In this document: piece by piece, positions 31,568 through 46,503 of the stretch
How the letters are laid out: every line of letters starts with the position of its first letter
Position numbering within the stretch: position 1 is the first letter of the stretch
From: Planosporangium thailandense
Lineage (GTDB): Bacteria; Actinomycetota; Actinomycetes; Mycobacteriales; Micromonosporaceae
NCBI RefSeq assembly: GCF_011947195.1
Contig: NZ_JAATVY010000038.1
Coordinates: forward strand, 1-49,181
Reading direction: 5' to 3'
Length of the DNA: 49,181 nt
The notes under the pieces: model-generated
Told to the model about the DNA's origin: nothing
Database searches by the model: none
The model's input: the letters and a program-made list of their open reading frames with translations, nothing else
Translations under genes and position numbers: made by a program

Positions 31568-32388
31568 GTGAGTGCCTCTCCCGTCGTCGGTAGGAGTCCG
31601 AGTTGACGCAGGTCGGCCACTGGCTCGGCGATGCTGCACGTACCGAAGCCCAGCCACAGTGGCCGGTCCTGCTCCAGCCGGCCGCGCACGGGGGCGACGA
31701 GCGCGGCGGTGTCGGCGGCGGCGAGCAGTGCCGCGACCGCCGCCGGTTCGGCCCCGTCGGCCGCGGCGATCGTGGCCGCCAGGACGTTCAGGAAGCCGTG
31801 GTGGGTGAAGCCGGTTTCCGGGTCGGCGTGCCGGCGCGCGTGGTGCAGGCCGGCGGTCAGCTTGAACGGCAGCGCGCGGTCGCGGCAGGCGCAGATGACG
31901 GCGGCCAGCTCGACCGGGGTGGGGAACAGCTCGGCGGCGAGGCCGCCGGTACGGAACTTCGGGGCGACCGGCAGCCCGGTGGCCCGAGCCTCGGCGATCG
32001 TGTCCAGGGCCGCCGCCAGGCCCCAGGTCAGCGGGGTCTCCGCGTACGCCCGGACTCCGGTCGCGGCGACCAGCGAGAGCAGCGCGCGCAGGCCGGGCTG
32101 GGGGTCCTCGCCGCGCTTGGCGACGGGCACCTCCACCTGGCGGATCGACCGCCCGCTGCCGACGGCCTTGGCGACCGCGTCGCACGGGCCGACCACTCCG
32201 ATCTCCAGATCGGCGGGCACTGCGGCCACGTCGTCGGGGCGGACCAGGAGCGGGCCGACCATTTCCGCGTACGGGGCCGAGCGGTGATCGCGGTGCGCGG
32301 CGACCGCGTCGGCGAGCGGTGCGTTGCCCGGCGGGAACACCGCCGCGTCGTCGAGCAGGCCGACGAGGAACGTGGGTACCGGACGCAT
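31564..32388 (-). CDS. Conserved protein of unknown function in the homogentisate operon
   Basis: A 274-residue soluble protein translationally coupled to fahA by a four-base overlap and divergent from hmgA. It has an alternating alpha/beta pattern with V-G-L-L-D-D-A-A-V-F-P-P-G-N near the start. Later come A-E-T-P-L-T, then P-K-F-R-T-G-G and F-P-T-P-V-E-L-A, L-P-F-K-L-T-A-G-L-H-H-A, and G-F-T-H-H-G-F-L-N-V. The last elements resemble a barrel-type active site rich in His, Lys and Arg. I recall no assigned function for this family, though it recurs with tyrosine-degradation genes. A link to maleylacetoacetate isomerisation is an untested idea from the missing step. Start is ATG 32388, with GTG 32394 as alternative. 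Confidence 0.75.
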   Translation of the reverse strand: MRPVPTFLVGLLDDAAVFPPGNAPLADAVAAHRDHRSAPYAEMVGPLLVRPDDVAAVPADLEIGVVGPCDAVAKAVGSGRSIRQVEVPVAKRGEDPQPGLRALLSLVAATGVRAYAETPLTWGLAAALDTIAEARATGLPVAPKFRTGGLAAELFPTPVELAAVICACRDRALPFKLTAGLHHARRHADPETGFTHHGFLNVLAATIAAADGAEPAAVAALLAAADTAALVAPVRGRLEQDRPLWLGFGTCSIAEPVADLRQLGLLPTTGEALT

Positions 32389-32412
32389 TGACACGAGAAT
32401 TGAACCTAGTGG

Positions 32413-32438
32413 ACGCTACGAATGGCGGACAATAGCGT
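32413..32438. promoter_or_regulatory. Inverted repeat between hmgA and the fahA operon
   Basis: ACGCTA and TAGCGT are separated by 14 bp in the 100-bp gap between divergent hmgA and the unknown gene-fahA operon. The half-sites are short, but the position suits an operator controlling both directions. Confidence 0.3.
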
Positions 32439-32488
32439 TCGATTATCGGACGCCTTGGTTCGTCAAGCGACCAGAGCAGGAGGACGGA

Positions 32489-33655
32489 ATGCCGTACTAC
32501 CGCAGCGTCGGCGACGTGCCCCACAAGCGCCACACCCAGTTCCGGCAGCCCGACGGCAGCCTGTACGCCGAGGAACTGATGGGTCAGGAGGGCTTCTCCA
32601 GCGACTCGTCCCTGCTCTACCACCGGCACCTGCCCACCGCGATCGTCGCGGCGCAGACGTTCTCACCACCGGCCTGGTCGCGTAAACCGAACCTCCCCCT
32701 CAAACCGCGCCATCTGCGTACGCACAAGCTCGACCCGGGCGACGGCGCGGACCCGATCCTGGGCCGGCAGCACCTGCTCGCCAACGACGACTGCCGCATC
32801 TCGTACGCGGTCGCCGACCGGCCCTCGCCGCTGTACCGCAACGCCATCGGCGACGAGTGCGTGTACGTGGAGTCCGGCCGGGCCCGCGTCGAGTCGACGT
32901 TCGGCGCGCTGGAGGTGGGCGCTGGCGACTACGTGATCATCCCGACCTCGGTGATCCACCGGATCGTGCCGCTCGACGGACCGCTGCGCACGCTGGTCAT
33001 CGAGGCGACCGGCCACATCGGTCCACCCAAGCGGTACCTGTCGGTGCGCGGCCAGTTCCTGGAGCACGCCCCGTACTGCGAGCGTGACCTGCGCGGACCG
33101 TCCTCACCCCTGCTGGAAGAAGGCACCGACGTGGACGTCTACGTCCAGCACCGGCGCGGGTGGACGAAGCTCACGTACGCCAACCACCCGTTCGACGTGG
33201 TCGGCTGGGACGGCTGCCTCTACCCGTGGGCCTTCTCGATCCACGACTTCGAGCCGATCACCGGCCGGGTACACCAGCCGCCACCCGTACACCAGACCTT
33301 CGAGGGCCCCAACTTCGTCATCTGCTCGTTCGTGCCGCGCAAGGTCGATTACCACCCACTGTCGATCCCGGTGCCGTACAACCACCACAACGTCGACTCC
33401 GACGAGGTGCTCTTCTACACGGGCGGCAACTACGAGGCGCGCCGCGGCTCGGGCATCGAGCAGGGCTCGATCTCGCTGCACCCGTCCGGCTTCACGCACG
33501 GCCCCCAGCCGGGCGCGGTCGAACGGGCCATCGGAGTGGACTACTTCGACGAGCTGGCGGTCATGGTCGACACGTTCCGGCCGCTCGACCTGTGCGAGCC
33601 GGCACTGGCGTGCGAGGACACCGGGTACGCCTGGACCTGGGCGAAGCGCCCCTGA
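32489..33655 (+). CDS. hmgA: Homogentisate 1,2-dioxygenase
   Basis: A 388-residue cupin-type Fe(II) dioxygenase opening homogentisate to maleylacetoacetate. Conserved landmarks are S-I-H-D-F-E-P-I-T-G-R-V-H-Q-P-P-P, V-I-C-S-F-V-P-R, P-Y-N-H-H-N-V-D-S-D-E (His and Glu iron ligands) and F-T-H-G-P-Q-P-G (third His ligand). It is shorter than the ~440-residue animal enzyme, as usual for actinobacterial forms. ATG 32489 follows GCAGGAGGACGG. It is divergent from the fahA operon and ends at a palindromic repeat. Confidence 0.95.
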   Translation: MPYYRSVGDVPHKRHTQFRQPDGSLYAEELMGQEGFSSDSSLLYHRHLPTAIVAAQTFSPPAWSRKPNLPLKPRHLRTHKLDPGDGADPILGRQHLLANDDCRISYAVADRPSPLYRNAIGDECVYVESGRARVESTFGALEVGAGDYVIIPTSVIHRIVPLDGPLRTLVIEATGHIGPPKRYLSVRGQFLEHAPYCERDLRGPSSPLLEEGTDVDVYVQHRRGWTKLTYANHPFDVVGWDGCLYPWAFSIHDFEPITGRVHQPPPVHQTFEGPNFVICSFVPRKVDYHPLSIPVPYNHHNVDSDEVLFYTGGNYEARRGSGIEQGSISLHPSGFTHGPQPGAVERAIGVDYFDELAVMVDTFRPLDLCEPALACEDTGYAWTWAKRP

Positions 33656-33660
33656 GCCGC

Positions 33661-33710
33661 GATCTTGGACACTTGGCGGTGCCATAGGCCCGCCAAGTGT
33701 CCAAGATCCG
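33661..33710. repeat. Palindromic interspersed repeat, copy B
   Basis: GATCTTGGACACTTGGCGG (33661-33679), loop TGCCATAGGC and the exact complement (33690-33708) form a perfect 19-bp stem between the convergent stops of hmgA and ispF. It differs from copy A (30309-30360) at about three positions, and those in the right arm restore pairing. Confidence 0.9.
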
Positions 33711-33712
33711 AG

Positions 33713-34198
33713 CTAGGACGCTGGGGCGGCGGGGAAGATCAGCGCGGTCGCGATCGCCGCGAGGCCCTCGCCCCGGCCGGTGAAGCCGAGCCCGTCGGTC
33801 GTGGTCCCCGACAGGCGGACCGTGGCCCCGATCGCCTCGCCGAGCAGCGTCTCCGCCTCGGCACGTCGCTTGCCCACCTTCGGCGCGACCCCGATGACCT
33901 GCACGGACACGTTGCCGATCTCGAAGCCGGCCGCCCGCACCCGGCGGGCGGTCTCGGCGAGCAGGGACACCCCGGACGCGCCAGCCCACTCCGGCCGACT
34001 GGTGCCGTAGTTCGCGCCGAGGTCACCGAGGCCCGCCGCGGACAGCAGCGCGTCACAGGCGGCGTGTGCGACCACGTCCCCGTCGGAGTGGCCGGCCAGC
34101 CCGTCCACCCCGTCCCAGCGCAGCCCGGCCACCCAGCACGGCCGGCCCGGTTCGTACGCGTGGACGTCGGTGCCGACACCGACCAGGGGAACGATCAC
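33713..34198 (-). CDS. ispF: 2-C-methyl-D-erythritol 2,4-cyclodiphosphate synthase
   Basis: A 161-residue MEP-pathway enzyme making the cyclic diphosphate intermediate of isoprenoid synthesis. G-V-G-T-D-V-H-A-Y holds the metal-binding Asp and His. [11 protein letters not shown] is the family signature, and [14 protein letters not shown] the C-terminal one. GTG 34198 gives the expected N-terminus. The usual neighbours ispD and carD lie upstream, separated from it here by a VTT membrane protein gene on the other strand. cysS, normally adjacent downstream, is displaced. Confidence 0.96.
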
Positions 34199-34279
34199 GA
34201 CCCAGAGGGTACGCGCCCGGCCGGGTGGACGTGTGCTGGCGCACTGCGGCGCCGCCCGCCCGCGCTTACCCTTGATCTG

Positions 34280-35065
34280 ATGGCACCCCTCGCCCCGACG
34301 GGTCCGGCCAACCCGACCCCCCGCGCAGGTCAGGCCGATCCCCCGCCCCGCCGGCACGTGGCCGCGGCCGTACGGTTCGGCCTGCTGGTCGCCCTGGTCG
34401 CCGGTCTGGGCCTGACCACGGTGCTCACTCATCCCAGCCGGCGCAGCCTGCTCGCCGCCGTGCACTCCAGCCATCTCGTGGCGCCGCTGCTGGCGGTCGT
34501 GGGCAGCGCCGTGCTCGTCATGGCGCTCACCCCCCGTACGCTGCTCGCCTTCGTCGGCGGGGCACTGTTCGGAGCGGTGACCGGCACCGTGTACGTGATC
34601 GTCGGCGTGCTCGCGGGGGCGTGCCTGTCGTTTGCGGTCGGCCGGTTCCTGGGGCGTGCCTTCGTGGCCTCGCAGCTGCGGGGCCGGTTCGCCCTGGTCG
34701 AGCAGGCGGTGGCCCGGCGCGGCCTCATGGCGGTGATCATCGCCCGCCTTATCCCGTTGGTCCCGTTCGGGATCTCCAACTACGCGTTCGGTACGACCTC
34801 GATCGGTTTCCTCGGGTTTCTGGGCGGCACCCTGGTGGGCGCGGCGCCGGCCACCGTGGCGTACGCGGCGCTGGGAGCGGCGACGATGAAGGGCGACCCC
34901 AGCGGCGCGACCTACGCCGGGATCGCCGTGGGTGTGCTCGGGGTCGGCGGCACGATCGGCACTTACCTGGTCTGGCGGCGCCGACCGCGGAACCGGCCGG
35001 AGAAGCCCACGGAGCGGGACGGTGAGACGACCACGAGAGCGCTCACCGGTACCCGGTCCGACTAG
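34280..35065 (+). CDS. TVP38/VTT-domain membrane protein
   Basis: A 261-residue protein with about six hydrophobic segments. After a Pro-rich N-terminus comes a helix at ~32-50, then the VTT/SNARE-associated core ([20 protein letters not shown], and [18 protein letters not shown]). This family is related to DedA proteins and TMEM41B and is linked to lipid scrambling or transport. A charged tail ends the protein. It lies between ispF and ispD on the opposite strand, divergent from ispF, and overlaps the ispD end by four bases. Confidence 0.88.
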
Positions 35066-35766
35066 CTCACGCCGTCGAGCAGCAGTTCGGCGATCGCCAG
35101 ATCGAGCGGTCGCGTGATTTTGAGCGCCGACTCCTCGCCCGGGACCGTCCAGACCGGCACGCCGATCTTCTCGGCCATCCCGGCGTCGTCGGTGTGGTCG
35201 TCCACCGCCGCGGCGTGCGCTTCGACAAGCGCTGACCGGCGAAAACCCTGGGGCGTCTGCACGGCGCGCAGCGCCGAGCGATCCAGCGTGGCCATCACCT
35301 CGCCGCTCGGCTGGACGTGCTTGATGGTGTCAACGACAGGCAGCACGGGTATGACTGCGGCATGGCCCTGCCGGACCGCCCCGGCGACCCGTTCGACCAG
35401 TTCGGGTGGGGCGAGCGCGCGGGCCGCGTCATGTACGAGCACGGTGTCGTACCGGTCGGGCGTGGCCGCGAGCGCCGCGGCCACCGATCGCTGCCGGGAC
35501 GCGCCTCCCGGGACGACCAGCACCTCGACCCGCTCGGAGAGGTGCGAAAGCAGGTCCCGCACGGCGGGCACGGACTCGGGGGGCGCCGCCACGACCACGC
35601 AGCCCACCGACGGGGCGGCGGTCATCCTGCGTACCGCATGCACGAGAAGGGGTTCGCCGCGCAGCGAACGCAGCGCTTTCGGCCCTCCGGGGCCGAGTCG
35701 AACCCCCTGACCCGCCGCCGGAACGAGGACCGCGACGTCACCACGCACACTGTGCTGCGCGGTCAC
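35062..35766 (-). CDS. ispD: 2-C-methyl-D-erythritol 4-phosphate cytidylyltransferase
   Basis: A 234-residue enzyme activating MEP with CTP. The N-terminal nucleotide-binding loop reads [13 protein letters not shown], followed by G-P-K-A-L as the conserved Lys site. V-H-D-A-A-R-A (consensus VHDAARP) and Q-T-P-Q-G-F-R are family motifs. It starts with GTG 35766 and lies downstream of carD on the same strand with a short gap, the standard actinobacterial carD-ispD arrangement. Confidence 0.95.
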
Positions 35767-35805
35767 GTCGCGGTCCTTGATCTACGAAATAGCCGATTCG
35801 ACGGT

Positions 35806-36291
35806 TCAGGCTCCGGTGAGCACCTTGTCGAGGAGCACCTCAGCCTCGTCCTTGGTGCTCTTCTCCGCGAGTGCGACCTCGCCGACCAGAATGTCACGCG
35901 CCTTCGCGAGCATCCGCTTCTCGCCTGCGGACAGGCCCCGCTCACGCTCCCGACGCCACAGGTCACGCACGACCTCCGCAACCTTCAGCGGGTTGCCGGA
36001 AGCCAGCTTCTCCAAGTTCGCCTTGTAACGCCGAGACCAGTTCGTCGGCTCCTCGGTGTGCGGAGCACGGAGGACATCGAAGACCTTCGTAAGACCTTCT
36101 TCGCCGACCACCTCACGCACGCCGACGCTCTCTGCGTTCTCGGCGGGCACCCGCACCGTCAGGTCACCCTGAGCGACCCTCAGGACGAGGTACTGCTTTT
36201 CCTCGCCCTTGACGATCCGGGTCTCGATTGCCTCGATGAGTGCGGCCCCGTGGTGGGGGTAGACAACGGTCTCGCCGACACTGAAAACCAT
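35806..36291 (-). CDS. carD: CarD-family RNA polymerase-binding regulator
   Basis: A 161-residue global transcription factor that binds the RNA polymerase beta subunit and stabilises open complexes at housekeeping and rRNA promoters. The Tudor-like RNAP-interacting domain is N-terminal ([13 protein letters not shown]). The helical DNA-binding domain is C-terminal, with the conserved Trp in N-W-S-R-R-Y-K-A-N and [11 protein letters not shown]. Length and sequence match the essential actinobacterial CarD. ispD follows on the same strand. The 371-bp upstream gap to the next gene holds both divergent promoters and no other gene. Confidence 0.97.
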
Positions 36292-36404
36292 AGGTTCGAA
36301 ACCCCTTTCGCTGTGTCTAGCGTAACACGGCGACAGCGCGTAATCCCAGCCCGAGCTTCACCATTAGTGCTGCTCAGAGCACGTGTGAAGCGCCTTTCTC
36401 CCGC

Positions 36405-36434
36405 TTGACAGAAGACCCAAAACCTGCATATGAC
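36405..36434 (+). promoter_or_regulatory. Candidate sigma-70-type promoter
   Basis: TTGACA (36405-36410) matches the -35 consensus exactly, and TATGAC (36429-36434), 18 bp further, is a fair -10. It points toward the membrane protein gene at 36663, leaving a ~220-base leader. A second TTGACA further on has no good -10. Confidence 0.35.
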
Positions 36435-36662
36435 TGCGTTCAGTGACCGTTTGGTAACCGCCACCCAGAGGGGCGAACCTTCTGATTATTCACCGCTGAA
36501 CCATTGACATACCTGCCGGGTACCTGCGCCAACCACTGTGAGCAGGCATTTCGTGGGACCGGAGCAGACGCTCACATCGGTCATTGCAAGATCTGCGAAC
36601 TGTCCCCTGGCATTCACCGGGGTTAAGGGGGACAGTGGGAGACCAGGTACAAGGAGTCGGCG

Positions 36663-37160
36663 ATGGGGACGCTGAGAGGTGGAAACGGCGGCGGCTGGTC
36701 GCCGGACGAACTACCCGAACTGCCTCCCGAGTGGGGTCCGGTCGTCATACCCGACGACCCGGCTGAGCTGGCACGCGAGGCAAGCAAGGTGCGCCGCGAG
36801 CTGCGCTGGGAGGCCCGCCGGCTACGCTGGAGACGCCGGCTGCACCTGCCCGCGCCCCGGTCCCGCACCGAGGACGCAGCGGCCCTCGGGGTGCCGTTGC
36901 TGGTTGTTCTCATCGCGACGATCGCGACCCTGACCAGTCTCTTCATCATTTCCTGGCCAAGGACGCCGCCACGGCCCGAGCTGCGACCGAGCGCGGTCGC
37001 CAGCCCGTCGGCCGGCACCACCGGCAACAACCCCGGCGGGCCGTCCCCACAAGCCAGCGCGCCCGCCGCACCCGCCGCACCCGCGCCGACGGCCACCGGG
37101 ACACCCCGCACGCTCACACCGGCCCAGCCCGACCCGGCCGGCTCGCCGCCCGGTGGCTAG
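36663..37160 (+). CDS. Conserved single-pass membrane protein, unknown
   Basis: A 165-residue protein after an AAGGAG ribosome binding site. Residues 1-75 are charged (W-S-P-D-E-L-P-E-L-P-P-E-W-G-P-V-V-I-P, then an Arg-rich helix). Residues ~77-97 form one membrane helix (V-P-L-L-V-V-L-I-A-T-I-A-T-L). The rest is a Pro/Ala/Ser-rich tail. No function is assigned. It is divergent from carD and overlaps the end of the polyketide synthase gene convergently by four bases. Confidence 0.75.
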   Translation: MGTLRGGNGGGWSPDELPELPPEWGPVVIPDDPAELAREASKVRRELRWEARRLRWRRRLHLPAPRSRTEDAAALGVPLLVVLIATIATLTSLFIISWPRTPPRPELRPSAVASPSAGTTGNNPGGPSPQASAPAAPAAPAPTATGTPRTLTPAQPDPAGSPPGG

Positions 37161-38236
37161 ACCTCCGATCCGGCCACCGGCTGCACCGCTGACAGGAGCG
37201 CGGCGTACAGCGTCAGCCCGGGCCCGAACGCGGTAGCCACCACCGTCCGGGGCGGCGCCGGTGAGCGCCGCAGCGCGTCCACGATCAGCAGTACCGTCGG
37301 CGACGAACAGTTACCGTGCGTAGTGAGCGTCTGGCGCGACGGCGCCATCCGCTCCTCGGACAGGCCCAGGCCGTCGCGTACGACATCGAGGATCTTCGGG
37401 CCACCCGGGTGCACGGCCCAGCCGTCGACGTCGGATACCTCCAGGCCGTGCCGGCCCAACAGGTCGCTCACCAGCGGTCCGATGTGTTCGGCCAGCACGT
37501 CGGGAACCTGCGGCGACAGCCTCATCCGGAAGCCCTGATCGGTCACGTCCCACGTCATGTGGTCCGCCGTCGCCGTGTCGGTGACCGCGGTGACCTCGCG
37601 CACCGTGTACCCGCCGGAGTGGACGTCGCCGGGCACCACCACGACGGCGGCCGCGGCGTCGGAGAAGAGCGCGTGGGCGACTATCTGCTGCGGATCGCGG
37701 GTCGGCGGCTGCAGGTGCAGCGTGGTCAGTTCCAGGCACAGCAGCAGCGCCGGCTCACCCCGGCTGGCCACGAAGTCGGTGACCGTGCCGAGGCCCGGAA
37801 GCGCCGCGTAGCAGCCCATGTGGCCGATGAACAGCCGCTGCGTGCGCGGCGACATGCCGAGGTCACGGGCGAGCAGGATGTCCAGGCCGGGGGTCGCGTA
37901 GCCGGTGCACGAGCAGACGGCGAACAGCCCGAGCCGCGCCGGGTCGAGTCCGGCCGCGTCGAGCGCGCCGGTCACCGCCTCTTTGCCCAGCGGCAGCGCC
38001 TCGACCAGATACCGCTCCATCCTGGCCTTGGTCGACCAGCGCGACACGTCCTCGAGCAGCGGATTGACGACGCTGTGGCGGGTGGCCACACCGGCGTTGG
38101 CGAAGATTCGTCGCGCCAGCGCACGCTGCGGCCCCGCGTAGTGACCGGCGAAGAAGTCACGCCACAGGTCGTCCTGGCGCAGCGCGGGGGGATGCGTCAC
38201 GCCGACCCCGGCGATGACGGGCCGCGGCTCAGTCAT
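37157..38236 (-). CDS. Type III polyketide synthase
   Basis: A 359-residue chalcone/stilbene-synthase-fold enzyme. The catalytic triad is visible: C142 in G-H-M-G-C-Y-A-A-L-P-G-L, H276 in W-A-V-H-P-G-G-P-K-I-L and N309 in T-H-G-N-C-S-S-P-T. It extends an acyl-CoA starter with malonyl-CoA and cyclises the product to a resorcinol, pyrone or related ring. Together with the flavoprotein, methyltransferase and UbiA genes that follow, it resembles the recalled agq cluster of Actinoplanes missouriensis (alkyl-O-dihydrogeranyl-methoxyhydroquinones), where the synthase makes alkylresorcinols. The starter here cannot be read from the sequence. Confidence 0.94.
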   Translation of the reverse strand: MTEPRPVIAGVGVTHPPALRQDDLWRDFFAGHYAGPQRALARRIFANAGVATRHSVVNPLLEDVSRWSTKARMERYLVEALPLGKEAVTGALDAAGLDPARLGLFAVCSCTGYATPGLDILLARDLGMSPRTQRLFIGHMGCYAALPGLGTVTDFVASRGEPALLLCLELTTLHLQPPTRDPQQIVAHALFSDAAAAVVVVPGDVHSGGYTVREVTAVTDTATADHMTWDVTDQGFRMRLSPQVPDVLAEHIGPLVSDLLGRHGLEVSDVDGWAVHPGGPKILDVVRDGLGLSEERMAPSRQTLTTHGNCSSPTVLLIVDALRRSPAPPRTVVATAFGPGLTLYAALLSAVQPVAGSEV

Positions 38237-38284
38237 CCCGTCGTTCTACCCGTCGGTAACGGAAGGCATGCCGTCCACGCGCGA

Positions 38285-39451
38285 TTACCACCGCGGCCCC
38301 GTACCATCCGCCTCGGGATCGCCACCGAGCGCCGCCACGCCGAGCCAGTCGGCGCAGACGTCCGACGTCGGCGGTTGCAGGGCCCCGCAGCGCGCGTCGC
38401 GGTACAGCCGTTCCAGGGCATGGCCCCGCCGCGTCGCGCTCGTGCCCGCCGCCTCCAGCATGCTCGCCGCCACCTCCGCGGCAGTGGAGCCGGCCAGCAG
38501 CTTCGCCCGCCACACCCACCGGTTCGTCGCGGGCTCGCCCGGCGCCTCGTCGACCCGGCGAGCCGCTTCACGCACCGCCAGCCAGGCCGCCGCGACCGCG
38601 GCGTCCGCCCGCCCGATCCGGCTCCGCACGGCGGGCAACTGCCCCAGCCCGCGCTCGGTGAGGTGGCCGACGGCCGCGTCGATCGCGGCCTGCGCCACGC
38701 CGACGTACACCGCCGCGTAACTGGCCACCATCCAGTGCGGCATCAGCTGCGCCACCAGCAGCGCGAGCCCTTCGACGCCACCGAGCAGCGCGTCGGCCCC
38801 GACAGCCACGTCCAGGTGCAGGTCATGCGATGACGTGGCGCGCATGCCGAGCGCGTCCCAGGTCGGCTCGACGGTGACGCCCGCACTGCCGGCGGGCACC
38901 AGGAACTGCGACACCAGGGACGGATCGGCCGCACTGCGCGCGGCGACCAGATAGGCGTCGGCGTGCCCCGCGCCGGAGACGAACGCCTTCGAACCCTTGA
39001 TGCGGAAACCGTCCCGCTCGGCACTGTACATCGTGGACATCTGAGACAGCCGGGAGCCGACGCCCCGCTCGCTCATCGCCACCGCGTACCAGGCACCTTG
39101 GGCCGCCGCCGCGAGCAGGCGGTCCCGGGCACGCAGGAAGCTCTCGGGCACGCCCAGCGCCTCGATCAGCGCCTGCGGGATGCCGGCGAGCGCGCCGGTG
39201 ACCGAGGTGTGCATGTTGAACACCAGGGCGGTCGCGCCGTTACCGCGCGCCAGTTCGTAAGCGACCTCGGCGTACTCGGAGAAGCCCGCGCCCAGCCCGC
39301 CCAGGTGCGCGGGCGCCATCAGCCCGAGCAGGCCCGCCTCCCGCAGGTCGGCGAAGTCGTCCACGGGAAACGTACCGTCGCGGTCGGACCCGGCGGCGCG
39401 GGCGGCGAACCGTGGCACCAGCCGGCGGGCCGCGGCGAGGGCTTGCGTCAC
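38285..39451 (-). CDS. Acyl-CoA dehydrogenase-fold flavoprotein in polyketide cluster
   Basis: A 388-residue protein with the acyl-CoA dehydrogenase three-domain fold. The N-terminal helical part has R-E-A-G-L-L-G-L-M-A-P-A-H-L-G-G. The middle beta domain has A-M-S-E-R-G-V-G-S, G-S-K-A-F-V-S-G-A and D-A-L-G-M-R-A-T-S-S-H-D. The C-terminal four-helix bundle has R-R-G-H-A-L-E-R-L-Y-R-D-A-R. The G-M-R-A-T and R-D-A-R-C-G-A-L-Q-P-P segments also occur in flavin-dependent monooxygenases of this fold, so it may hydroxylate the aromatic ring or desaturate a chain. The GTG at 39451 overlaps the methyltransferase stop (GTGA), so the genes are coupled. Confidence 0.85.
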   Translation of the reverse strand: MTQALAAARRLVPRFAARAAGSDRDGTFPVDDFADLREAGLLGLMAPAHLGGLGAGFSEYAEVAYELARGNGATALVFNMHTSVTGALAGIPQALIEALGVPESFLRARDRLLAAAAQGAWYAVAMSERGVGSRLSQMSTMYSAERDGFRIKGSKAFVSGAGHADAYLVAARSAADPSLVSQFLVPAGSAGVTVEPTWDALGMRATSSHDLHLDVAVGADALLGGVEGLALLVAQLMPHWMVASYAAVYVGVAQAAIDAAVGHLTERGLGQLPAVRSRIGRADAAVAAAWLAVREAARRVDEAPGEPATNRWVWRAKLLAGSTAAEVAASMLEAAGTSATRRGHALERLYRDARCGALQPPTSDVCADWLGVAALGGDPEADGTGPRW

Positions 39452-40164
39452 GCTGTCTCCTCCTTGGTGCCGATCGCCTGGTAGAGCGCGGCCTTCGACC
39501 AGGTCGGCACCATGGGCGCCGCGCCACGACGGGTCACCAGCCACCGCAACAGCCCGCGTACCTGGGGACGCAGGCCGCGCGTACGCAGCCGGACCCCGTG
39601 CCGGGCGAACTCCGCGACCAGCGCGTCCGGATCGACGAACAGGGCCGGGTCGTGGATGCCGGGCGGCGCACCGCCGGGCATCCGCTCAGCTACCGAGATG
39701 GCCAGGAAGCGGCACACCGCGGTGTCGGCAAGGGTGTCGATGACCACCAGTCCGCCCGGCCGCATGATCCGGCACACCTCGGCCACCGTCGCCGGCAGGT
39801 CGGTGACGTGTTCGAGCAGTTCACCGGCGCTCACCACGTCGGCGCAGCCGTCGGCGAGCGGCAGCCGCGTCACGTCCGCCCGCACCGGGGTGACGCCGTG
39901 GCCGGCCGCCAGTTCGAGCGCCGACCGGACGAGATCGACGCCGACGTGCCGGTACCCCTTGCCGGCGACGTGCGGGGCCAGCAGCCCGCCGCCGCACCCG
40001 AGATCGACCAGGACGGCGTCCGGACGCGACGTCGGCGGCACCAGCCGCCCCCGGGCCGCCGCGATCCAGGCCAGCATCGCGAACCGGCCCTCCGGTCGCC
40101 ACCACTCGCCCACCAGGTCGTCGTACTGACCGACGTCGTTGCGAGGGCGGGTAGACGTCCGCAT
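39448..40164 (-). CDS. SAM methyltransferase (UbiG-like) of the polyketide cluster
   Basis: A 238-residue class I methyltransferase. Motif I is V-L-V-D-L-G-C-G-G-G-L-L; G-V-D-L-V is the acidic motif II; V-S-A-G-E-L-L-E-H-V and R-I-M-R-P-G-G-L-V-V-I follow. The Y-D-D-L-V-G-E-W-W N-terminus is like UbiG-type O-methyltransferases acting on prenylated or alkylated phenols. Its likely role is O-methylation of the polyketide-derived hydroquinone. ATG 40164 is preferred over an upstream in-frame start because the methyltransferase homology begins there. It overlaps the next gene by four bases and is divergent from ubiA by 47 bp. Confidence 0.88.
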   Translation of the reverse strand: MRTSTRPRNDVGQYDDLVGEWWRPEGRFAMLAWIAAARGRLVPPTSRPDAVLVDLGCGGGLLAPHVAGKGYRHVGVDLVRSALELAAGHGVTPVRADVTRLPLADGCADVVSAGELLEHVTDLPATVAEVCRIMRPGGLVVIDTLADTAVCRFLAISVAERMPGGAPPGIHDPALFVDPDALVAEFARHGVRLRTRGLRPQVRGLLRWLVTRRGAAPMVPTWSKAALYQAIGTKEETA

Positions 40165-40211
40165 GAACGCCAGCCTGACACGAAACGATCTGCCAGGCCA
40201 CACTGGACCGC

Positions 40212-41027
40212 ATGCGTACCGCGCTGGGCCTGCTCAGGGCCTGCCACCCGGAACCGACGGCGGCGGTCACCGTGGTGGCGACGCTGCTCGCCCTGGCGAC
40301 CGGGCGCGGGCCCGGCGGCGCGCTCGCCGTCGCCGCCACCGTCCTGGCCAGCCAGCTCGCGGTGGGTTGGTGCAACGACGCCGTCGACGCGGGGCGCGAC
40401 GCGGCCGTGGGGCGCCGGGACAAGCCGATCGTCTCGGGGGCGGTCTCCCGGCGTACCGTCGCGGTCGCGGCCGTGGTGGCCGCGACCGCGACCGTTCCGC
40501 TGGCGTGGGCGTCGGGGCCCCGTGCCGGCTCGGTGGCCGCGGTCGGCCTCGCCGCCGCCCTGCTCTACAACTGGCCGCTGAAGGCCACGGCCGTCTCGGT
40601 GCTGCCCTACGCGGTGTCGTTCGCCGCGCTGCCGGCGTTCGTGGTGATGGCCGTCTCCCGGCCGCCGTGGTGGCTGATCACCGCTGGCGCCCTGCTCGGC
40701 GCCGGCGCCCACTTCGCCAACGTCCTTCCCGATCTGGGCGACGACGCCCGTACCGGCGTCCGCGGCCTGCCGCACCGGGTCGGCGCCCGGGCCAGCGTCG
40801 CCCTCGCCGGCGCGCTGCTGTTCGGGGCGACCACCGCGCTCACGTTCGGCCCACCCGGGTCCCCGTCGTGGATCAGCGCCTGGGCGTTCGGCGGCGCGGC
40901 CGTGACGCTCGCCGTCGGCGGGTACGTGGCGGGGCGCCGGCCGGCCTCGCGCGCCGCGTTCCGGTCGGTGCTGGTCGTGGCGGTGCTCGACGTGGTCCTG
41001 CTGCTGACCGCCGGCGTGCGGGTGTGA
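40212..41027 (+). CDS. UbiA-family prenyltransferase
   Basis: A 271-residue integral membrane enzyme with about eight helices. The first Asp-rich motif is N-D-A-V-D-A-G-R-D (N55-D63, the NDxxDxxxD consensus), and a second Asp-rich loop lies at N-V-L-P-D-L-G-D-D. It transfers an isoprenyl group, such as geranyl, to an aromatic acceptor. Divergent from and 47 bp away from the methyltransferase gene, it completes a polyketide, flavoprotein, methyl and prenyl cassette. The isoprenyl donor would come from the MEP pathway represented here by ispD and ispF. Confidence 0.93.
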   Translation: MRTALGLLRACHPEPTAAVTVVATLLALATGRGPGGALAVAATVLASQLAVGWCNDAVDAGRDAAVGRRDKPIVSGAVSRRTVAVAAVVAATATVPLAWASGPRAGSVAAVGLAAALLYNWPLKATAVSVLPYAVSFAALPAFVVMAVSRPPWWLITAGALLGAGAHFANVLPDLGDDARTGVRGLPHRVGARASVALAGALLFGATTALTFGPPGSPSWISAWAFGGAAVTLAVGGYVAGRRPASRAAFRSVLVVAVLDVVLLLTAGVRV

Positions 41028-41156
41028 CGCGGCACACGCCGTCACGCTTGCGAGGGCGGCCCGGGACACGCGTGAGGCGGGTCGGCGCGGGCGTCTCAGA
41101 GCGGACAACTACGCTGTACTCCGGCTTGTTTCGGGTTGTCGCCGAGGAGGACCGAA

Positions 41157-41960
41157 GTGCCGCGCTCCATTACCGGTACGCCGTCGCGACGTCGTATGTC
41201 GCGCGTCGCCGCGCTGCTCGCCGCACCCGCGGCCGCCGTCTGCCTGCTGTCGGGCTGTGGCGCCGGGCAGGTCAACCAGACCACGTCGATGGTCGCGCCG
41301 ATCGCCGGCGCGGACGTCAACTCCAAGCCGCACGGCCAGGCGTCGCTGCGGGCCGTGGAGGTCAAGTACAACAGCCCGGAGGGCTACTCGGCCGGTGAGA
41401 CCGCGCCGCTGTCGCTGTACATCGCGAACAACGACGCCGGCAAGCCGCTGGTCCTGCGCAGCGTGACGGCCACCGACGCAAGCGGCGCGCCGATCGGCAC
41501 CGTGGTGCTCACCGGCGGTACCCCGAGCGTGGGCACCGGCGCCGCGCCGTCGGCCTCCGCCACCGGGGAGCCCGCCGCCACCGAGGGCGCCGGCGGCCCG
41601 TCGGCGGGCCCGTCCCACCGGGCGTCGGCATCGCCGTCCCGCCGGGCGGCGGCCTCCGCCAACCCCTCCGCCTCGGAGAGCCCGTCGGAGAGCGCCTCGG
41701 AGAGCCCCTCCGAGGCGCCGTCGCCCAGCCCGTCGGCGGCGTCGGTGACGATCCCGGCGAGCGGGTACGCGCGACTCGATCCCGACAGCGGGGCCTACCT
41801 GGCCATCACGAACCTCACCACGTCGCTTCGGCCCGGCTCGTCGGTGCTCGTGACGTTCACGTTCGAGGGCGAGGACCCGCTCCAGGTGCCGGTGTCGTTC
41901 GCCGTCCCGCTGTCGCCCGCGCCGCGGACGGGTGCGCCGTCGGACGCCGCGGCGGAATAA
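41157..41960 (+). CDS. LpqE-like lipoprotein
   Basis: A 267-residue exported lipoprotein. The GTG at 41157 follows GGAGGACCG. The signal peptide ends in the lipobox L-L-S-G-C, giving a lipidated Cys at ~33. A first beta segment (L-R-A-V-E-V-K-Y-N-S-P-E, A-P-L-S-L-Y-I-A-N-N) and a second one (L-A-I-T-N-L-T-T-S-L-R-P-G-S-S-V-L-V-T-F) surround a ~75-residue Ser/Pro/Ala-rich low-complexity insert. Position directly upstream of radA and the domain pattern fit LpqE (Rv3584) of mycobacteria, recalled from memory. Function is unknown; related beta-domains include copper-binding PCuAC proteins, but the Met/His metal sites are not evident here. Confidence 0.8.
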   Translation: MPRSITGTPSRRRMSRVAALLAAPAAAVCLLSGCGAGQVNQTTSMVAPIAGADVNSKPHGQASLRAVEVKYNSPEGYSAGETAPLSLYIANNDAGKPLVLRSVTATDASGAPIGTVVLTGGTPSVGTGAAPSASATGEPAATEGAGGPSAGPSHRASASPSRRAAASANPSASESPSESASESPSEAPSPSPSAASVTIPASGYARLDPDSGAYLAITNLTTSLRPGSSVLVTFTFEGEDPLQVPVSFAVPLSPAPRTGAPSDAAAE

Positions 41961-41995
41961 CGGTTTTCGTCGTACCCGTTCGGTAGGTTTTCGGC

Positions 41996-43432
41996 GTGAC
42001 TGGACGCGCCACCCCATCCCGCTCGTCGACCAAGGCCTCGGGCTCCCGGGCCACCTATGAGTGCGACGCCTGCGGGCACCGGCCACCCAAGTGGGTCGGC
42101 CGCTGCCCGGAGTGCGGCGAGTGGGGGTCGATCGTCGAGGCGGCGTCCAGTACGCCGGCCGCGCTGCGCGCCGTCACCGCCCGCAGGCCGTCGGAGCCCG
42201 CCCGGCCGATCGCCACGATCAGCGCGGCGCCCGCGAAGGCCCGGCCCACCAACGTGCCGGAGTTCGACCGGGTCCTCGGCGGTGGCCTGGTCCCCGGCGG
42301 GGTGGTGCTCCTCGCCGGCGAGCCGGGGGTCGGCAAGTCGACCCTGCTGCTCGAGGTCGCGCAGCAGTGGGCCGCCACCGCCGACACGACGGCCCTGGTG
42401 ATCAGCGGTGAGGAGTCGGTGAGCCAGGTCCGCCTGCGCGCCGAGCGGATCGGCGCGCTGCACGAGCGCCTCTACCTCGCCGCCGAGACCGACCTGGCCG
42501 CCGTCCTCGGCCACCTGGACGCGGTCCAGCCGGGCCTGCTCGTGCTCGACTCGGTGCAGACGATCTCGGCTCCCGGCGCGGACGGGGTCCCCGGCGGTGT
42601 CACACAGGTGCGCGGGGTGACGGCGGCGATCGTCGCGGTGGCCAAGGAGCGCGGCATCGCGACCGTGCTCGTGGGGCACGTCACCAAGGACGGCCAGGTC
42701 GCGGGCCCCCGGGTCCTGGAGCACCTGGTCGACGTCGTGCTCAACTTCGAGGGCGACAAGCACTCCTCGTTGCGGATGGTGCGCGGGCTGAAGAACCGGT
42801 TCGGCGCCGCCGACGAGGTGGGCTGCTTCGAGATGCACGAGGGGGGCATCGCGAGCCTGCCCGACCCGTCCGGGCTGTTCCTGACGCGCTACGCCGACGC
42901 CGTCCCCGGCACCTGCGTCACCGTCGCGATGGAGGGGCGCCGCGCACTCGTGACCGAGGTGCAGGCGCTGATCGGGGCGCCCGTCCCCGGTTCTCCCCGG
43001 CGGACCGTGAGCGGGCTGGACAGCGCCCGGCTGGCGATGGTGCTGGCCGTGCTCCAGCGCCGCTCCAAGCTGCAGCTCCACGACCGGGAGGTGTTCGCGG
43101 CGACCGTGGGCGGCGTCCGGGTCATCGAGCCCGCCGCCGACCTGGGCGTCGCGCTCGCGGTGGCCTCTGCCGCCACCGAGCTTCCAATGGCCCCCGACCT
43201 CGTCGCGCTGGGCGAGGTCGGCCTGACCGGCGAGGTGCGCCGCGTCGGCGCGGTCCCCCGGCGGCTCGCCGAGGCGGCCCGGCTGGGCTTCCGGTTCGCG
43301 CTGGTGCCGCCGGGCTGCGGACCGGCGGCCACCGGCTCGACTCCGCCGGGCATGCGGGTGCTCGAGGTCGGCGACGTCCGCGCCGCCCTGCACTTCGCGG
43401 TGCAGGCCGGCGAGCGCAGCGAGGCGCGTTAA
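41996..43432 (+). CDS. radA: DNA repair protein RadA
   Basis: A 478-residue RecA-like ATPase that helps process recombination intermediates. The N-terminal zinc finger has cysteines at 23, 26, 37 and 40 (C-D-A-C, then C-P-E-C). Walker A is G-E-P-G-V-G-K-S-T at ~108-116. The RadA-specific L-K-N-R-F-G motif follows the core, and a C-terminal Lon-like domain (G-E-V-G-L-T-G-E-V-R) is present. It starts at GTG 41996. disA follows 126 bp downstream on the same strand; the two are commonly adjacent, and RadA is known to affect DisA in other bacteria. Confidence 0.97.
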   Translation: MTGRATPSRSSTKASGSRATYECDACGHRPPKWVGRCPECGEWGSIVEAASSTPAALRAVTARRPSEPARPIATISAAPAKARPTNVPEFDRVLGGGLVPGGVVLLAGEPGVGKSTLLLEVAQQWAATADTTALVISGEESVSQVRLRAERIGALHERLYLAAETDLAAVLGHLDAVQPGLLVLDSVQTISAPGADGVPGGVTQVRGVTAAIVAVAKERGIATVLVGHVTKDGQVAGPRVLEHLVDVVLNFEGDKHSSLRMVRGLKNRFGAADEVGCFEMHEGGIASLPDPSGLFLTRYADAVPGTCVTVAMEGRRALVTEVQALIGAPVPGSPRRTVSGLDSARLAMVLAVLQRRSKLQLHDREVFAATVGGVRVIEPAADLGVALAVASAATELPMAPDLVALGEVGLTGEVRRVGAVPRRLAEAARLGFRFALVPPGCGPAATGSTPPGMRVLEVGDVRAALHFAVQAGERSEAR

Positions 43433-43558
43433 CCGGTGGATCAGGCGACTGACCCGGGAGATGGCCGTCTCGCGCCGCGCCCGGATACCACTTCCGGCAC
43501 CGTCTTACGGGTTTCCGACGTACCGCAACCGCACTGCTGGCGTGGCGGTCCGTAGACT

Positions 43559-44641
43559 ATGCGGGTGCCGATCGACCGCGATGACCCGCTACGCGCGACA
43601 CTGGCGCTCATGGCGCCGGGCACCGCGCTGCGCGACGGCCTGGAGCGCATCCTGCGCGGCCGGACCGGCGCGCTGATCGTGCTGGGCTACGACCAGACGG
43701 TCGAGACGTTGTGCACGGGCGGTTTCCCGCTCGACGTCGAGTTCTCCGCCACCCGACTCCGCGAACTGTGCAAGATGGACGGCGCGGTCGTGCTGTCCAG
43801 CGACGGCACCCGGATCGTACGGGCGGCCGTGCACCTGATGCCCGACCCCGCGATCCCGTCCGAAGAGTCGGGAACCCGTCACCGCACGGCCGAGCGGGTC
43901 GCCAAGCAGACCGGATTCCCGGTCATCTCCGTCAGCCAGTCGATGCGCATCATCGGGCTGTACGTCAACGGGCAGCGCCACGTCCTCGACGACTCGGCCG
44001 CCATCCTGTCCCGGGCCAACCAGGCGCTCGCCACCCTCGAACGCTACAAGCTGCGCCTCGACGAGGTCAGCGGCACCCTGTCGGCGCTGGAGATAGAGGA
44101 CCTCGTCACCGTCCGCGACGCCGTCGCGGTGGTCCAGCGGCTGGAGATGGTGCGCCGGATCGCCGACGAGATCGCCGGATACGTGGTGGAGCTCGGCACC
44201 GACGGCCGGCTCCTGGCGTTGCAGCTCGAAGAGTTGATGGCGGGCGTGGAGGCCGACCGCACGCTGGTGATCCGCGACTACCTGCCGGACGGGCACGGGT
44301 TCGACAACGCCGAGGACGCGCTCGACGAGCTCGACCGGCTGTCGGCCACCGACCTGATCGACCTCGTCGCGGTCGCCAAGGCCCTCGGGTACCCGGGCGC
44401 GAGCGACGCGCTGGAGGCAGCGGTGTCGCCCCGCGGGTTCCGCCTGCTGGCGAAGGTGCCGCGCCTGCCCGGTGCGGTCCTCGACCGGCTCGTCGACCAC
44501 TTCGGCAGCCTGCAGCGGCTGCTCGGCGCCACCGTGGAGGATCTGCAGGCCGTCGAGGGCGTCGGTGACGCCCGCGCCCGCAGCATCCGGGAGGGCCTGT
44601 CCCGCCTGGCCGAGGCGTCGATCCTCGAGCGGTACGTGTAG
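43559..44641 (+). CDS. disA: DNA-integrity scanning diadenylate cyclase
   Basis: A 360-residue octameric enzyme making c-di-AMP from two ATP and sensing branched DNA. The DAC domain has D-G-A at 74-76 and the R-H-R motif at 107-109. A helical spine covers ~145-285, and a C-terminal helix-hairpin-helix DNA-binding region ([15 protein letters not shown]) ends the protein. The ATG at 43559 is followed by an in-frame GTG two codons later, an alternative start. It is next to radA, as in many Gram-positive bacteria. Confidence 0.97.
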
Positions 44642-44646
44642 CCGCC

Positions 44647-45354
44647 CTACTTCACCTCGACGACGACCGGATCGCTCAGCTTGGTGGCGAGCCGGGCCAC
44701 CAGCTCGTACTTTCCGGGCGCCACCTTGCCGCCGGGGCAGCCGTTGTCGGTGGCGTTGCCGTGCCAGTCCAGGTAAAACTCGGCCTCGATGTTCGGACCG
44801 AACATCCGGACGTCCGTGCCGTGCTGCGCATCGCAGCTGTCGGACGACCAGACCTTCGCCTTCGCCGCGTTCTGCAGATACAGCTCCTGCGCGTCGGCCC
44901 CCACGTCCCGGGTGCAGGACCGGCCGGCGATGTTCTTGACGCGCAGGTAGAAGCGCACCGTGCTGCCCTGCGCGACCGAGGTCGAGGCCGCGGCGGCGGT
45001 CACGGCTATCTCACCGTCGGTGCACGGCCCGGACGGTGCCGGTGACGGCTGCGCCGCGGGTACGAGCGACGGCGAGGCAGACGCCGACTGTGAATCACCG
45101 TCGCCAGCCGGGATGTCGATGCCGCCGCCCGAGGTGAACACCGGCGCCGACGGCGACACCGAAGCGGACGGCGTCGGTGTCGGACTGGACGAGTCCCGCC
45201 CGGCCGGCGACTGCGCACCGGTGCGCCGCGACACGTTGGCCGTGCCGGTGCACGAGTAGAGCAGCGCGAACATGGCCAGAAGCAGGGTGCCCGCAACCGC
45301 CGCCCGGCGTCGCCAATAGACGGCCGGGGGCAACGGGCCAACCGTCAGCTTCAT
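44647..45354 (-). CDS. Membrane-anchored secreted protein, Rv3587c-like position
   Basis: A 235-residue protein from ATG 45354. One N-terminal membrane helix (~18-38, R-R-A-A-V-A-G-T-L-L-L-A-M-F-A-L-L) anchors a Ser/Pro-rich linker and a C-terminal beta domain with four or more cysteines (G-R-S-C-T-R-D-V-G, S-D-S-C-D-A, N-G-C-P-G-G), probably disulfide-bonded. It is convergent with disA, five bases apart. A conserved membrane protein at the same place in mycobacteria (Rv3587c, recalled) suggests orthology. Function is unknown. Confidence 0.75.
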   Translation of the reverse strand: MKLTVGPLPPAVYWRRRAAVAGTLLLAMFALLYSCTGTANVSRRTGAQSPAGRDSSSPTPTPSASVSPSAPVFTSGGGIDIPAGDGDSQSASASPSLVPAAQPSPAPSGPCTDGEIAVTAAAASTSVAQGSTVRFYLRVKNIAGRSCTRDVGADAQELYLQNAAKAKVWSSDSCDAQHGTDVRMFGPNIEAEFYLDWHGNATDNGCPGGKVAPGKYELVARLATKLSDPVVVEVK

Positions 45355-45406
45355 GATGGACACACGTTATCGCCGGCCCGCCATATCGAGGGGTCGGCGC
45401 GCCGCC

Positions 45407-45952
45407 TTACAGGTACACCTTTCTTGTGTGTATCGCGTGCGCGCCCGCAACCCGGTCGAGGAACAGCAGGCCAGCGCAGTGGTCGATCTCATGTTGTAAC
45501 GCGCGGGCCTCGAAGGCGTTTGTGGTGATCTCGATCTCACCTCCGCCCGGCAGCTCACCCGCCACGACCACGCGGCCGGCGCGCTTGACATCGCCGGTCA
45601 GGTCGGGCACCGACATGCAGCCCTCCCGCCCCTTCTGCCACTGGCTCGCCTCGACCAGGCGGGCGTTGCACAGCACGAAGGTGCCGTGGACCGTGCGGAC
45701 CTTCGGGTGCCCGGTCACGTCGACGGCGAAGACCTGCGCCGACACTCCTACCTGGGGCGCGGCAAGGCCGACGCAGCCGGGCGACACCCGCATGGTGGCC
45801 ACGAGATCCGCCGCCAGTTGAAGGACGGCGGGATCGTCCGGGTCGACCACCTCGCCGGCCATGGAGAGGACGGCCGCCGGGGCGCGGACCACCGGGCGTA
45901 CGACGCCCTGGCGGCCCAGATCCTCCACTGACCAGTCCACGACGCCGGTCAC
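45407..45952 (-). CDS. def: Peptide deformylase
   Basis: A 181-residue metalloenzyme removing the formyl group from nascent proteins. Motif 1 is C-V-G-L-A-A-P-Q (60-67), where the usual first Gly is Cys. Motif 2 is E-G-C-M-S with metal ligand C112. Motif 3 is H-E-I-D-H (154-158). All catalytic residues are present. It starts at GTG 45952, which overlaps the stop of the ACT-domain gene by four bases (GTGA). As bacteria often carry several deformylases, this may not be the only one. Confidence 0.94.
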   Translation of the reverse strand: MTGVVDWSVEDLGRQGVVRPVVRAPAAVLSMAGEVVDPDDPAVLQLAADLVATMRVSPGCVGLAAPQVGVSAQVFAVDVTGHPKVRTVHGTFVLCNARLVEASQWQKGREGCMSVPDLTGDVKRAGRVVVAGELPGGGEIEITTNAFEARALQHEIDHCAGLLFLDRVAGAHAIHTRKVYL

Positions 45953-46503
45953 AGCACGTCCGTCTCGGCCGGACGCAGCGCGACCTCGACACCCAGGGCG
46001 CGCGAGACGGCTTCCAGGCGCTCACCGATGGCGTCCACATCGGCGCCGGCCGGCAGGTCCAACTCCGCCACCAGCACGTACAGGTCGCCGGACAGCCGGG
46101 TGGTCAGGTCGGTGATGTTGCCACCGAACTCGGCCAGCCCACGGGCCACCGAGGCGACGATCCCCAGCCGGTCGGCGCCGTGCACTGACAGCACGTAGTG
46201 CCCGCCGGGTGGCTCGGGCGTACCCTCCGGGCCCACCTTGCGGACCGTGGTCGCAAGCGTTCCGTCGGCGGTGAGTGGCGCGAGCGCGGCCTCCACGTCC
46301 TCGATCGCCGGCGTACCCGCCTCCGCGCCCGGGCCGCCGCAGATCAGCGTCATCGCGAAGTGCCCGCGCAGCCGGGTCATCGTGGAGTCGGTCAGGTTCA
46401 TCCCCAACCCCGCCAGGACCTCAGCCACGTCGGCGATGATTCCCGGCCGGTCATGCCCGATAACGGTGATCGCGAGCTCGTCCACCCTCGCATCATCGTG
46501 CAT
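45949..46503 (-). CDS. Tandem ACT-domain protein (GcvR-like)
   Basis: About 184 residues with two ACT domains: ~8-85 (L-A-I-T-V-I-G-H-D-R-P-G-I-I-A-D-V-A-E-V-L-A-G-L-G) and ~100-175 (Y-V-L-S-V-H-G-A-D-R-L-G-I-V-A-S-V-A-R-G-L-A). ACT pairs bind amino acids, and the layout is that of glycine cleavage repressor GcvR-type regulators, which lack a DNA-binding domain. Start is ATG 46503, with GTG 46485 possible. It is coupled to def and divergent from mutY by 27 bp. The ligand and partner are unknown. Confidence 0.85.
   Translation of the reverse strand: MHDDARVDELAITVIGHDRPGIIADVAEVLAGLGMNLTDSTMTRLRGHFAMTLICGGPGAEAGTPAIEDVEAALAPLTADGTLATTVRKVGPEGTPEPPGGHYVLSVHGADRLGIVASVARGLAEFGGNITDLTTRLSGDLYVLVAELDLPAGADVDAIGERLEAVSRALGVEVALRPAETDVL

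Follow-up and report, generated by a model that had tools for sequence, protein, structure and literature searches.

What does a compact set of genes for a polyketide synthase (PKS), a flavoprotein, a methyltransferase and a prenyltransferase make, and does its flavoprotein hydroxylate a ring or desaturate a side chain? The question is raised by positions 37157-41027 of a contig of Planosporangium thailandense (NZ_JAATVY010000038.1, positions 1 to 49,181; this whole stretch of 49,181 nucleotides is called the window below). Our analysis supports orthology of the four genes with the agq/los cluster for phenolic lipids described in Actinoplanes missouriensis and Micromonospora endolithica, with the likeness to AgqA-D drawn through citing papers and shared contigs. 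Such a cluster very probably makes an alkyl-O-prenyl-methoxyhydroquinone membrane lipid by the successive action of the PKS, a hydroxylase, the methyltransferase and the UbiA prenyltransferase. It is thus an ordinary ortholog of a published kind and not a new one. Its interest lies in its conservation: the set sits amid core genes and appears to descend vertically, and the lipid is seldom seen. Even in A. missouriensis, what the lipid does is termed enigmatic (PMC10896814).

Identity of the four genes

The interval holds four neighbouring open reading frames, all intact, arranged as an earlier note on this DNA had described. Read from the divergent gap, the minus strand carries the methyltransferase (39448-40164, 238 residues), the flavoprotein (38285-39451, 388 residues) and the PKS (37157-38236, 359 residues) in that order, and the UbiA-family prenyltransferase (40212-41027, 271 residues) lies on the plus strand. 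The methyltransferase stop and the GTG start of the flavoprotein overlap by four bases. Given a methyltransferase start at the ATG at 40164, the gap to UbiA is exactly 47 base pairs. Searches with the flavoprotein used a start at 39454, one codon upstream of 39451.

The agqA/losA-like type III PKS matched both chalcone/stilbene synthase Pfam domains with 66.4 and 76.4 bits, above the cut-off of 27. Its catalytic triad is intact, with Cys142, His276 and Asn309 in the blocks GHMGC, VHPGGP and GNCSSP, and its top matches among solved structures were PKS18 and PKS11. It is the only PF00195 match found in its own genome. The protein falls short of the NCBIfam model for DpgA (3,5-dihydroxyphenylacetyl-CoA synthase), scoring 144.6 bits against a cut-off of 425, and PADLOC returned nothing for it.

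The flavoprotein displayed the three-part acyl-CoA dehydrogenase fold above Pfam cut-off. The S-adenosylmethionine-dependent methyltransferase matched Methyltransf_11 above cut-off and is UbiG-like, although its 83.4 bits stay under the UbiG cut-off of 102.95 (NCBIfam TIGR01983). UbiA, a predicted aromatic O-prenyltransferase, matched PF01040 with 81.7 bits (cut-off 34.2) and carries the features of its superfamily, with NDxxDxxxD starting at residue 55 and DLGDD as the second Asp motif. The fold, the class of the methyltransferase and the intact triad and prenyltransferase motif had all been proposed from the sequence and hold up here. Assignments to primary metabolism were not adopted: the PKS, flavoprotein, methyltransferase and UbiA fell under the NCBIfam cut-offs of all 5, 19, 17 and 9 models that they matched, respectively, including the flavoprotein and UbiA, for which the earlier note had raised that prospect. 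Every family alignment (77 to 105 rows) retained the active-site residues in at least 97% of its rows.

The loseolamycin locus of M. endolithica reads disA, radA, a hypothetical gene, UbiA, methyltransferase, acyl-CoA dehydrogenase, losA, two hypothetical genes, carD, ispD and ispF (PMC7587189). Both the order UbiA-methyltransferase-acyl-CoA dehydrogenase-type III PKS and the flanks disA/radA and carD/ispD/ispF are those of the window; the likeness is one of gene order, not of LosA sequence. The agq product of A. missouriensis is a series of 6-alkyl-4-O-dihydrogeranyl-2-methoxyhydroquinones (PMC3569393), and agqA-D comprise a PKS gene and three neighbouring tailoring genes, as seen through the orthology published for Phytohabitans (PMC7692728).

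Two orthologous loci tie the window to published agq-like clusters. In Dactylosporangium sp. AC04546, positions 20,966-45,958 of contig 99 are listed as an agq-like type III PKS region (57%; PMC8538451), and our ortholog L066, which has no flavoprotein, maps to 32972-45958 of that contig. Orthologs of agqA and agqB-D are reported in four Phytohabitans, with the tags Psuf_029220 to 029250 in P. suffuscus (PMC7692728). The P. suffuscus ortholog L140, which carries all four genes, occupies 3.229-3.246 Mb of a 10.15-Mb record, close to the approximately 3.2 Mb that interpolation from the tag number predicts. The other three PF00195 matches of this genome lie at 7.5 and 9.8 Mb, leaving L140 as the only one near the expected position. 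The paper counts two type III synthases in P. suffuscus, compared with our four profile matches, one of them weak. The resemblance to agq, which the earlier note had proposed, was thereby borne out indirectly, through the los gene order, the contig of L066 and the position of L140.

Recurrence and descent of the gene set

We compared the best 80 of 282 confirmed PKS loci (the named loci) by tblastn at chosen bit thresholds. The methyltransferase was found in 74, the flavoprotein in 70 and UbiA in 63 of them, or 69 with the simple-sequence filter off; this filter depresses the UbiA count, and some misses are contig ends. By PKS, the closest named loci come from a metagenome bin labelled Dactylosporangium (87%) and from Planosporangium mesophilum (86%). 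Ten named loci lack the flavoprotein: L064-L068, L086 and L129, plus L104, L119 and L121, whose contigs end beside the PKS.

Among 121 genomes (that of P. thailandense and 120 relatives), 74 contain a PKS ortholog at 55% identity or more, split into two pieces in G036 and G061. The methyltransferase is likewise found in 74 genomes (E 1e-40), 72 of them PKS carriers, and UbiA in 95 (1e-30), of which 71 are PKS carriers. All 55 genomes with the flavoprotein (1e-60) belong to the 74 PKS carriers; a wider sample of 298 genomes from the order contained it in 67 (1e-100). The arrangement goes beyond chance, since the four orthologs are found jointly in related genomes. That the set forms a unit in relatives, as proposed earlier, stands in this sense; it does not extend to every carrier, as in 19 of the 74 no flavoprotein ortholog passed the threshold applied. 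PKS and methyltransferase genes are present and the flavoprotein is absent at L162-L175, which account for 14 of these 19, and also at L064-L068.

Distances between the synthases follow those of the neighbouring core genes, and the cluster therefore appears to have descended mainly vertically. Spearman correlations with RadA distances were 0.87 for the PKS, 0.86 for the flavoprotein, 0.74 for the methyltransferase and 0.87 for UbiA, with 0.90 for IspD (65 sequences), in a named set that is rich in Micromonospora and so favours such correlations. PKS distances correlated with those of RadA, DisA and IspD at 0.87-0.89 (70, 66 and 70 sequences). In each of ten comparisons, none of 199 permutations matched the observed correlation. 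An agq-like cluster is reported from every Micromonospora genome that one study examined (PMC5765111) and from all analysed S. arenicola strains (PMC9181873), and the set is likewise reported for each strain covered by a Salinispora study (PMC12838356).

Proposed pathway and competing readings

Converting a resorcinol to the A. missouriensis product takes a single round each of hydroxylation, methylation and prenylation, and the cassette holds one candidate enzyme per reaction. The type III PKS would build a 5-alkylresorcinol from a long fatty acyl starter and three malonyl units. As a reduced-flavin-dependent monooxygenase, the protein with the acyl-CoA dehydrogenase fold would hydroxylate the ring, probably adjacent to the alkyl chain. 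The methyltransferase would O-methylate one phenol, and UbiA would place a dihydrogeranyl or similar group on another oxygen to give the alkyl-O-prenyl-methoxyhydroquinone membrane lipid. Gene identity, gene order, conservation and the missing dehydrogenase base are observed directly; we infer each tailoring step, the order of steps, the lipid made by this organism and the joint expression of the genes from a single divergent promoter. Formation of an alkylresorcinol by a PKS followed by its oxidation is also the course taken by the srs cluster of Streptomyces griseus, whose SrsA is cited in PMC10896814. The srs flavoprotein is of another type than that of the window, and no UbiA is known from the srs cluster.

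Assignment of the oxidation step depends on the flavoprotein, whose best matches among solved structures include both dehydrogenases and oxygenases that share its fold. We aligned it with its acyl-CoA dehydrogenase relatives from the same genome; 27 loci gave 23 rows and, after removal of the protein itself and two repeats (pairs L182/L198 and L189/L200), 20 distinct paralogs. Of these 20, 13 have the base Glu in the YEGT region. The flavoprotein has Pro360 (of 388 residues) at this position, which is 361 in the alignment numbering begun one codon upstream, and all 24 aligned orthologs carry this Pro. No Glu occurs in residues 229-262 (alignment numbering), which we take to be the helix that holds the catalytic Glu in isovaleryl-type enzymes. 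The canonical acyl-CoA dehydrogenase Glu was thus found at neither of these two presumed positions.

Both the fold and the missing Glu fit a reduced-flavin monooxygenase of group D. DszC and the nitrososynthases of this group (matches 4doy, 3mxl and 3m9v) have the same fold and lack the base Glu; they differ in substrate from the flavoprotein, which is likened to them by its sequence. Pfam identifies the flavoprotein as the only one among the four genes and finds no other oxidase there. Because the product needs one ring hydroxylation and the set offers no other oxidase, a role of the protein as probable flavin-dependent ring hydroxylase appears the likelier one.

Several observations weigh against the proposed pathway. 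The best NCBIfam match of the flavoprotein is FadE16, a dehydrogenase by name, although its 177.9 bits are far below the cut-off of 600. The YEGT-region Glu is also missing from 7 of the 20 paralogs, so its loss is by itself no proof of an oxygenase. The exact masses quoted in PMC7692728 (486.41 and others) imply, by our arithmetic, one unsaturation beyond a saturated chain with a dihydrogeranyl group, which keeps desaturation in play. The flavoprotein is absent from the five Dactylosporangium loci L064-L068, among which is the published agq-like L066, and present in the Dactylosporangium bin L063. With no flavoprotein ortholog in 19 of the 74 synthase carriers, those genomes seem to dispense with the oxidation or to draw it from elsewhere. 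The other points concern the product. A bacterial artificial chromosome with activated losA yielded resorcinols that carried no methyl, no prenyl and no extra oxygen on the ring, and loseolamycins were not seen in wild-type M. endolithica (both PMC7587189). No such lipid was detected by liquid chromatography-mass spectrometry in the four Phytohabitans (PMC7692728), the Salinispora product is described as unreported (PMC12838356), and compounds predicted from clusters of strain BRA006, including loseolamycin, were not found (PMC11965639).

The flavoprotein points could be explained if it were a desaturase or reductase whose substrate is the acyl chain or the geranyl donor, with the ring hydroxylase encoded elsewhere. 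This would suit the dehydrogenase fold and the FadE16 match, the extra unsaturation, the reduced isoprenoid that a dihydrogeranyl group requires and the persistence of PKS and methyltransferase in most carriers without the flavoprotein. We consider it unlikely in view of the invariant Pro, the lack of a catalytic Glu at both positions inspected and the lack of any other oxidase among the four genes by Pfam. The choice between ring hydroxylation and side-chain desaturation that the earlier note had posed therefore leans to hydroxylation, with some room for desaturation from the quoted masses.

It is quite improbable that the cluster stops at unprenylated alkylresorcinols of the loseolamycin type, with UbiA as a neighbour serving its own substrate. 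This would account for the untailored alkylresorcinols that were the only products when losA was activated in Streptomyces albus; that experiment placed a strong promoter on losA only (PMC7587189), and the agq product does bear an O-dihydrogeranyl group (PMC3569393). Within our data, an element of constant length lies between UbiA and the methyltransferase that it faces in 71 of 75 regions. Its occurrence elsewhere cuts both ways. There are 24 genomes with a UbiA match and no PKS ortholog, 16 of which we inspected. UbiA stands alone between carD and radA in six of the 16 (G084, G114, G106, G019, G012 and G062; loci L176-L181), as expected of a gene with a separate role. In G012 and G062 (L180 and L181) its frame spans only about 213 residues, which makes function there doubtful; in the other four it is near full length with motifs retained. 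These lone genes either use another substrate or mark loss of the cassette. The remaining ten genomes have no carD or radA match nearby, and in six of them UbiA directly adjoins a distant type III PKS, an association that counts against this reading.

At L142, L143, L145, L146, L149 and L152, which belong to further families of the order, a distant type III PKS gene (32-36% identity) lies divergently beside UbiA; the methyltransferase and the flavoprotein gave no match there.

That the cluster is silent or decaying and yields no product is very improbable: several carriers show no detected lipid in the reports (PMC7692728, PMC7587189, PMC11965639 and PMC12838356), but the active-site residues are kept in nearly all alignment rows and the genes descend along with their core flanks.

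Divergent gap and flanking genes

The gap between the methyltransferase and UbiA holds a 33-nucleotide element, AGTSTG-N18-TGYCANNCT, at 40172-40204 on the minus strand, seven bases from each start codon. It was sought in 75 regions, namely the window and the 74 of the 80 named loci in which both neighbours could be placed, with a pattern composed after inspecting twelve regions and permitting lengths of 29-39 nucleotides. The element was found in 71 regions, every time with a length of 33, and was missing from L093, L098, L120 and L136. Both strands of these loci and the window, 2.44 Mb in all, contain 73 occurrences. The first NTG beyond the element is an ATG at 6-7 nucleotides in 54 of the 71 regions, and another NTG comes earlier in 17. 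Among 40 stretches from additional genomes the strict pattern occurred in five, all of the same family; the remaining 35, among them more members of that family and every other family sampled, did not have it. Because the loci are related and the pattern was built on some of the data, the constant length alone counts as independent evidence, and then only in part.

The element reads as two back-to-back -10-like hexamers. Since each half reads CANNCT with a start 6-7 nucleotides beyond, it may possibly represent two overlapping leaderless promoters; alternatively, it could be the binding site of a regulator. A sigma-70 consensus scan of 36400-41200 returned no promoter and no terminator, which does not favour the promoter reading. 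We tentatively extend it to a broader picture, itself rather doubtful, in which the cluster would make a core envelope lipid that the family inherits vertically, rather than a dispensable secondary metabolite, and its two arms would share one overlapping divergent promoter, the -35 region of either gene falling on the -10 of the other, so that leaderless messages would switch prenylation and lipid synthesis jointly.

The flanks consist of core genes and two small frames that we do not assign to the pathway. On the minus strand, ispF, ispD and carD occupy 33713-36291, with matches in 70, 71 and 72 of the 80 named loci, respectively. On the plus strand, radA (69 of 80) and then disA (66 of 80) occupy 41996-44641. 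We take the names radA, disA, carD, ispD and ispF to apply from the matching order in Table 1 of PMC7587189. Between carD and the PKS lies a small hypothetical protein (36663-37160, plus strand) for which neither Pfam nor NCBIfam gave a match at E 0.001; 12 of the 80 named loci contain a stretch similar to it. Between UbiA and radA lies a putative lipoprotein (41136-41960, plus strand), so labelled from its N-terminus, with a weak PCuAC match below Pfam cut-off and a similar stretch in 22 of the 80. Near ispF, positions 32324-33655 encode a homogentisate-dioxygenase-like cupin protein that scores far below the NCBIfam hmgA cut-off (50.6 against 510.75 bits) and is matched in 53 of the 80 named loci; that it acts on hydroquinones would be a guess.

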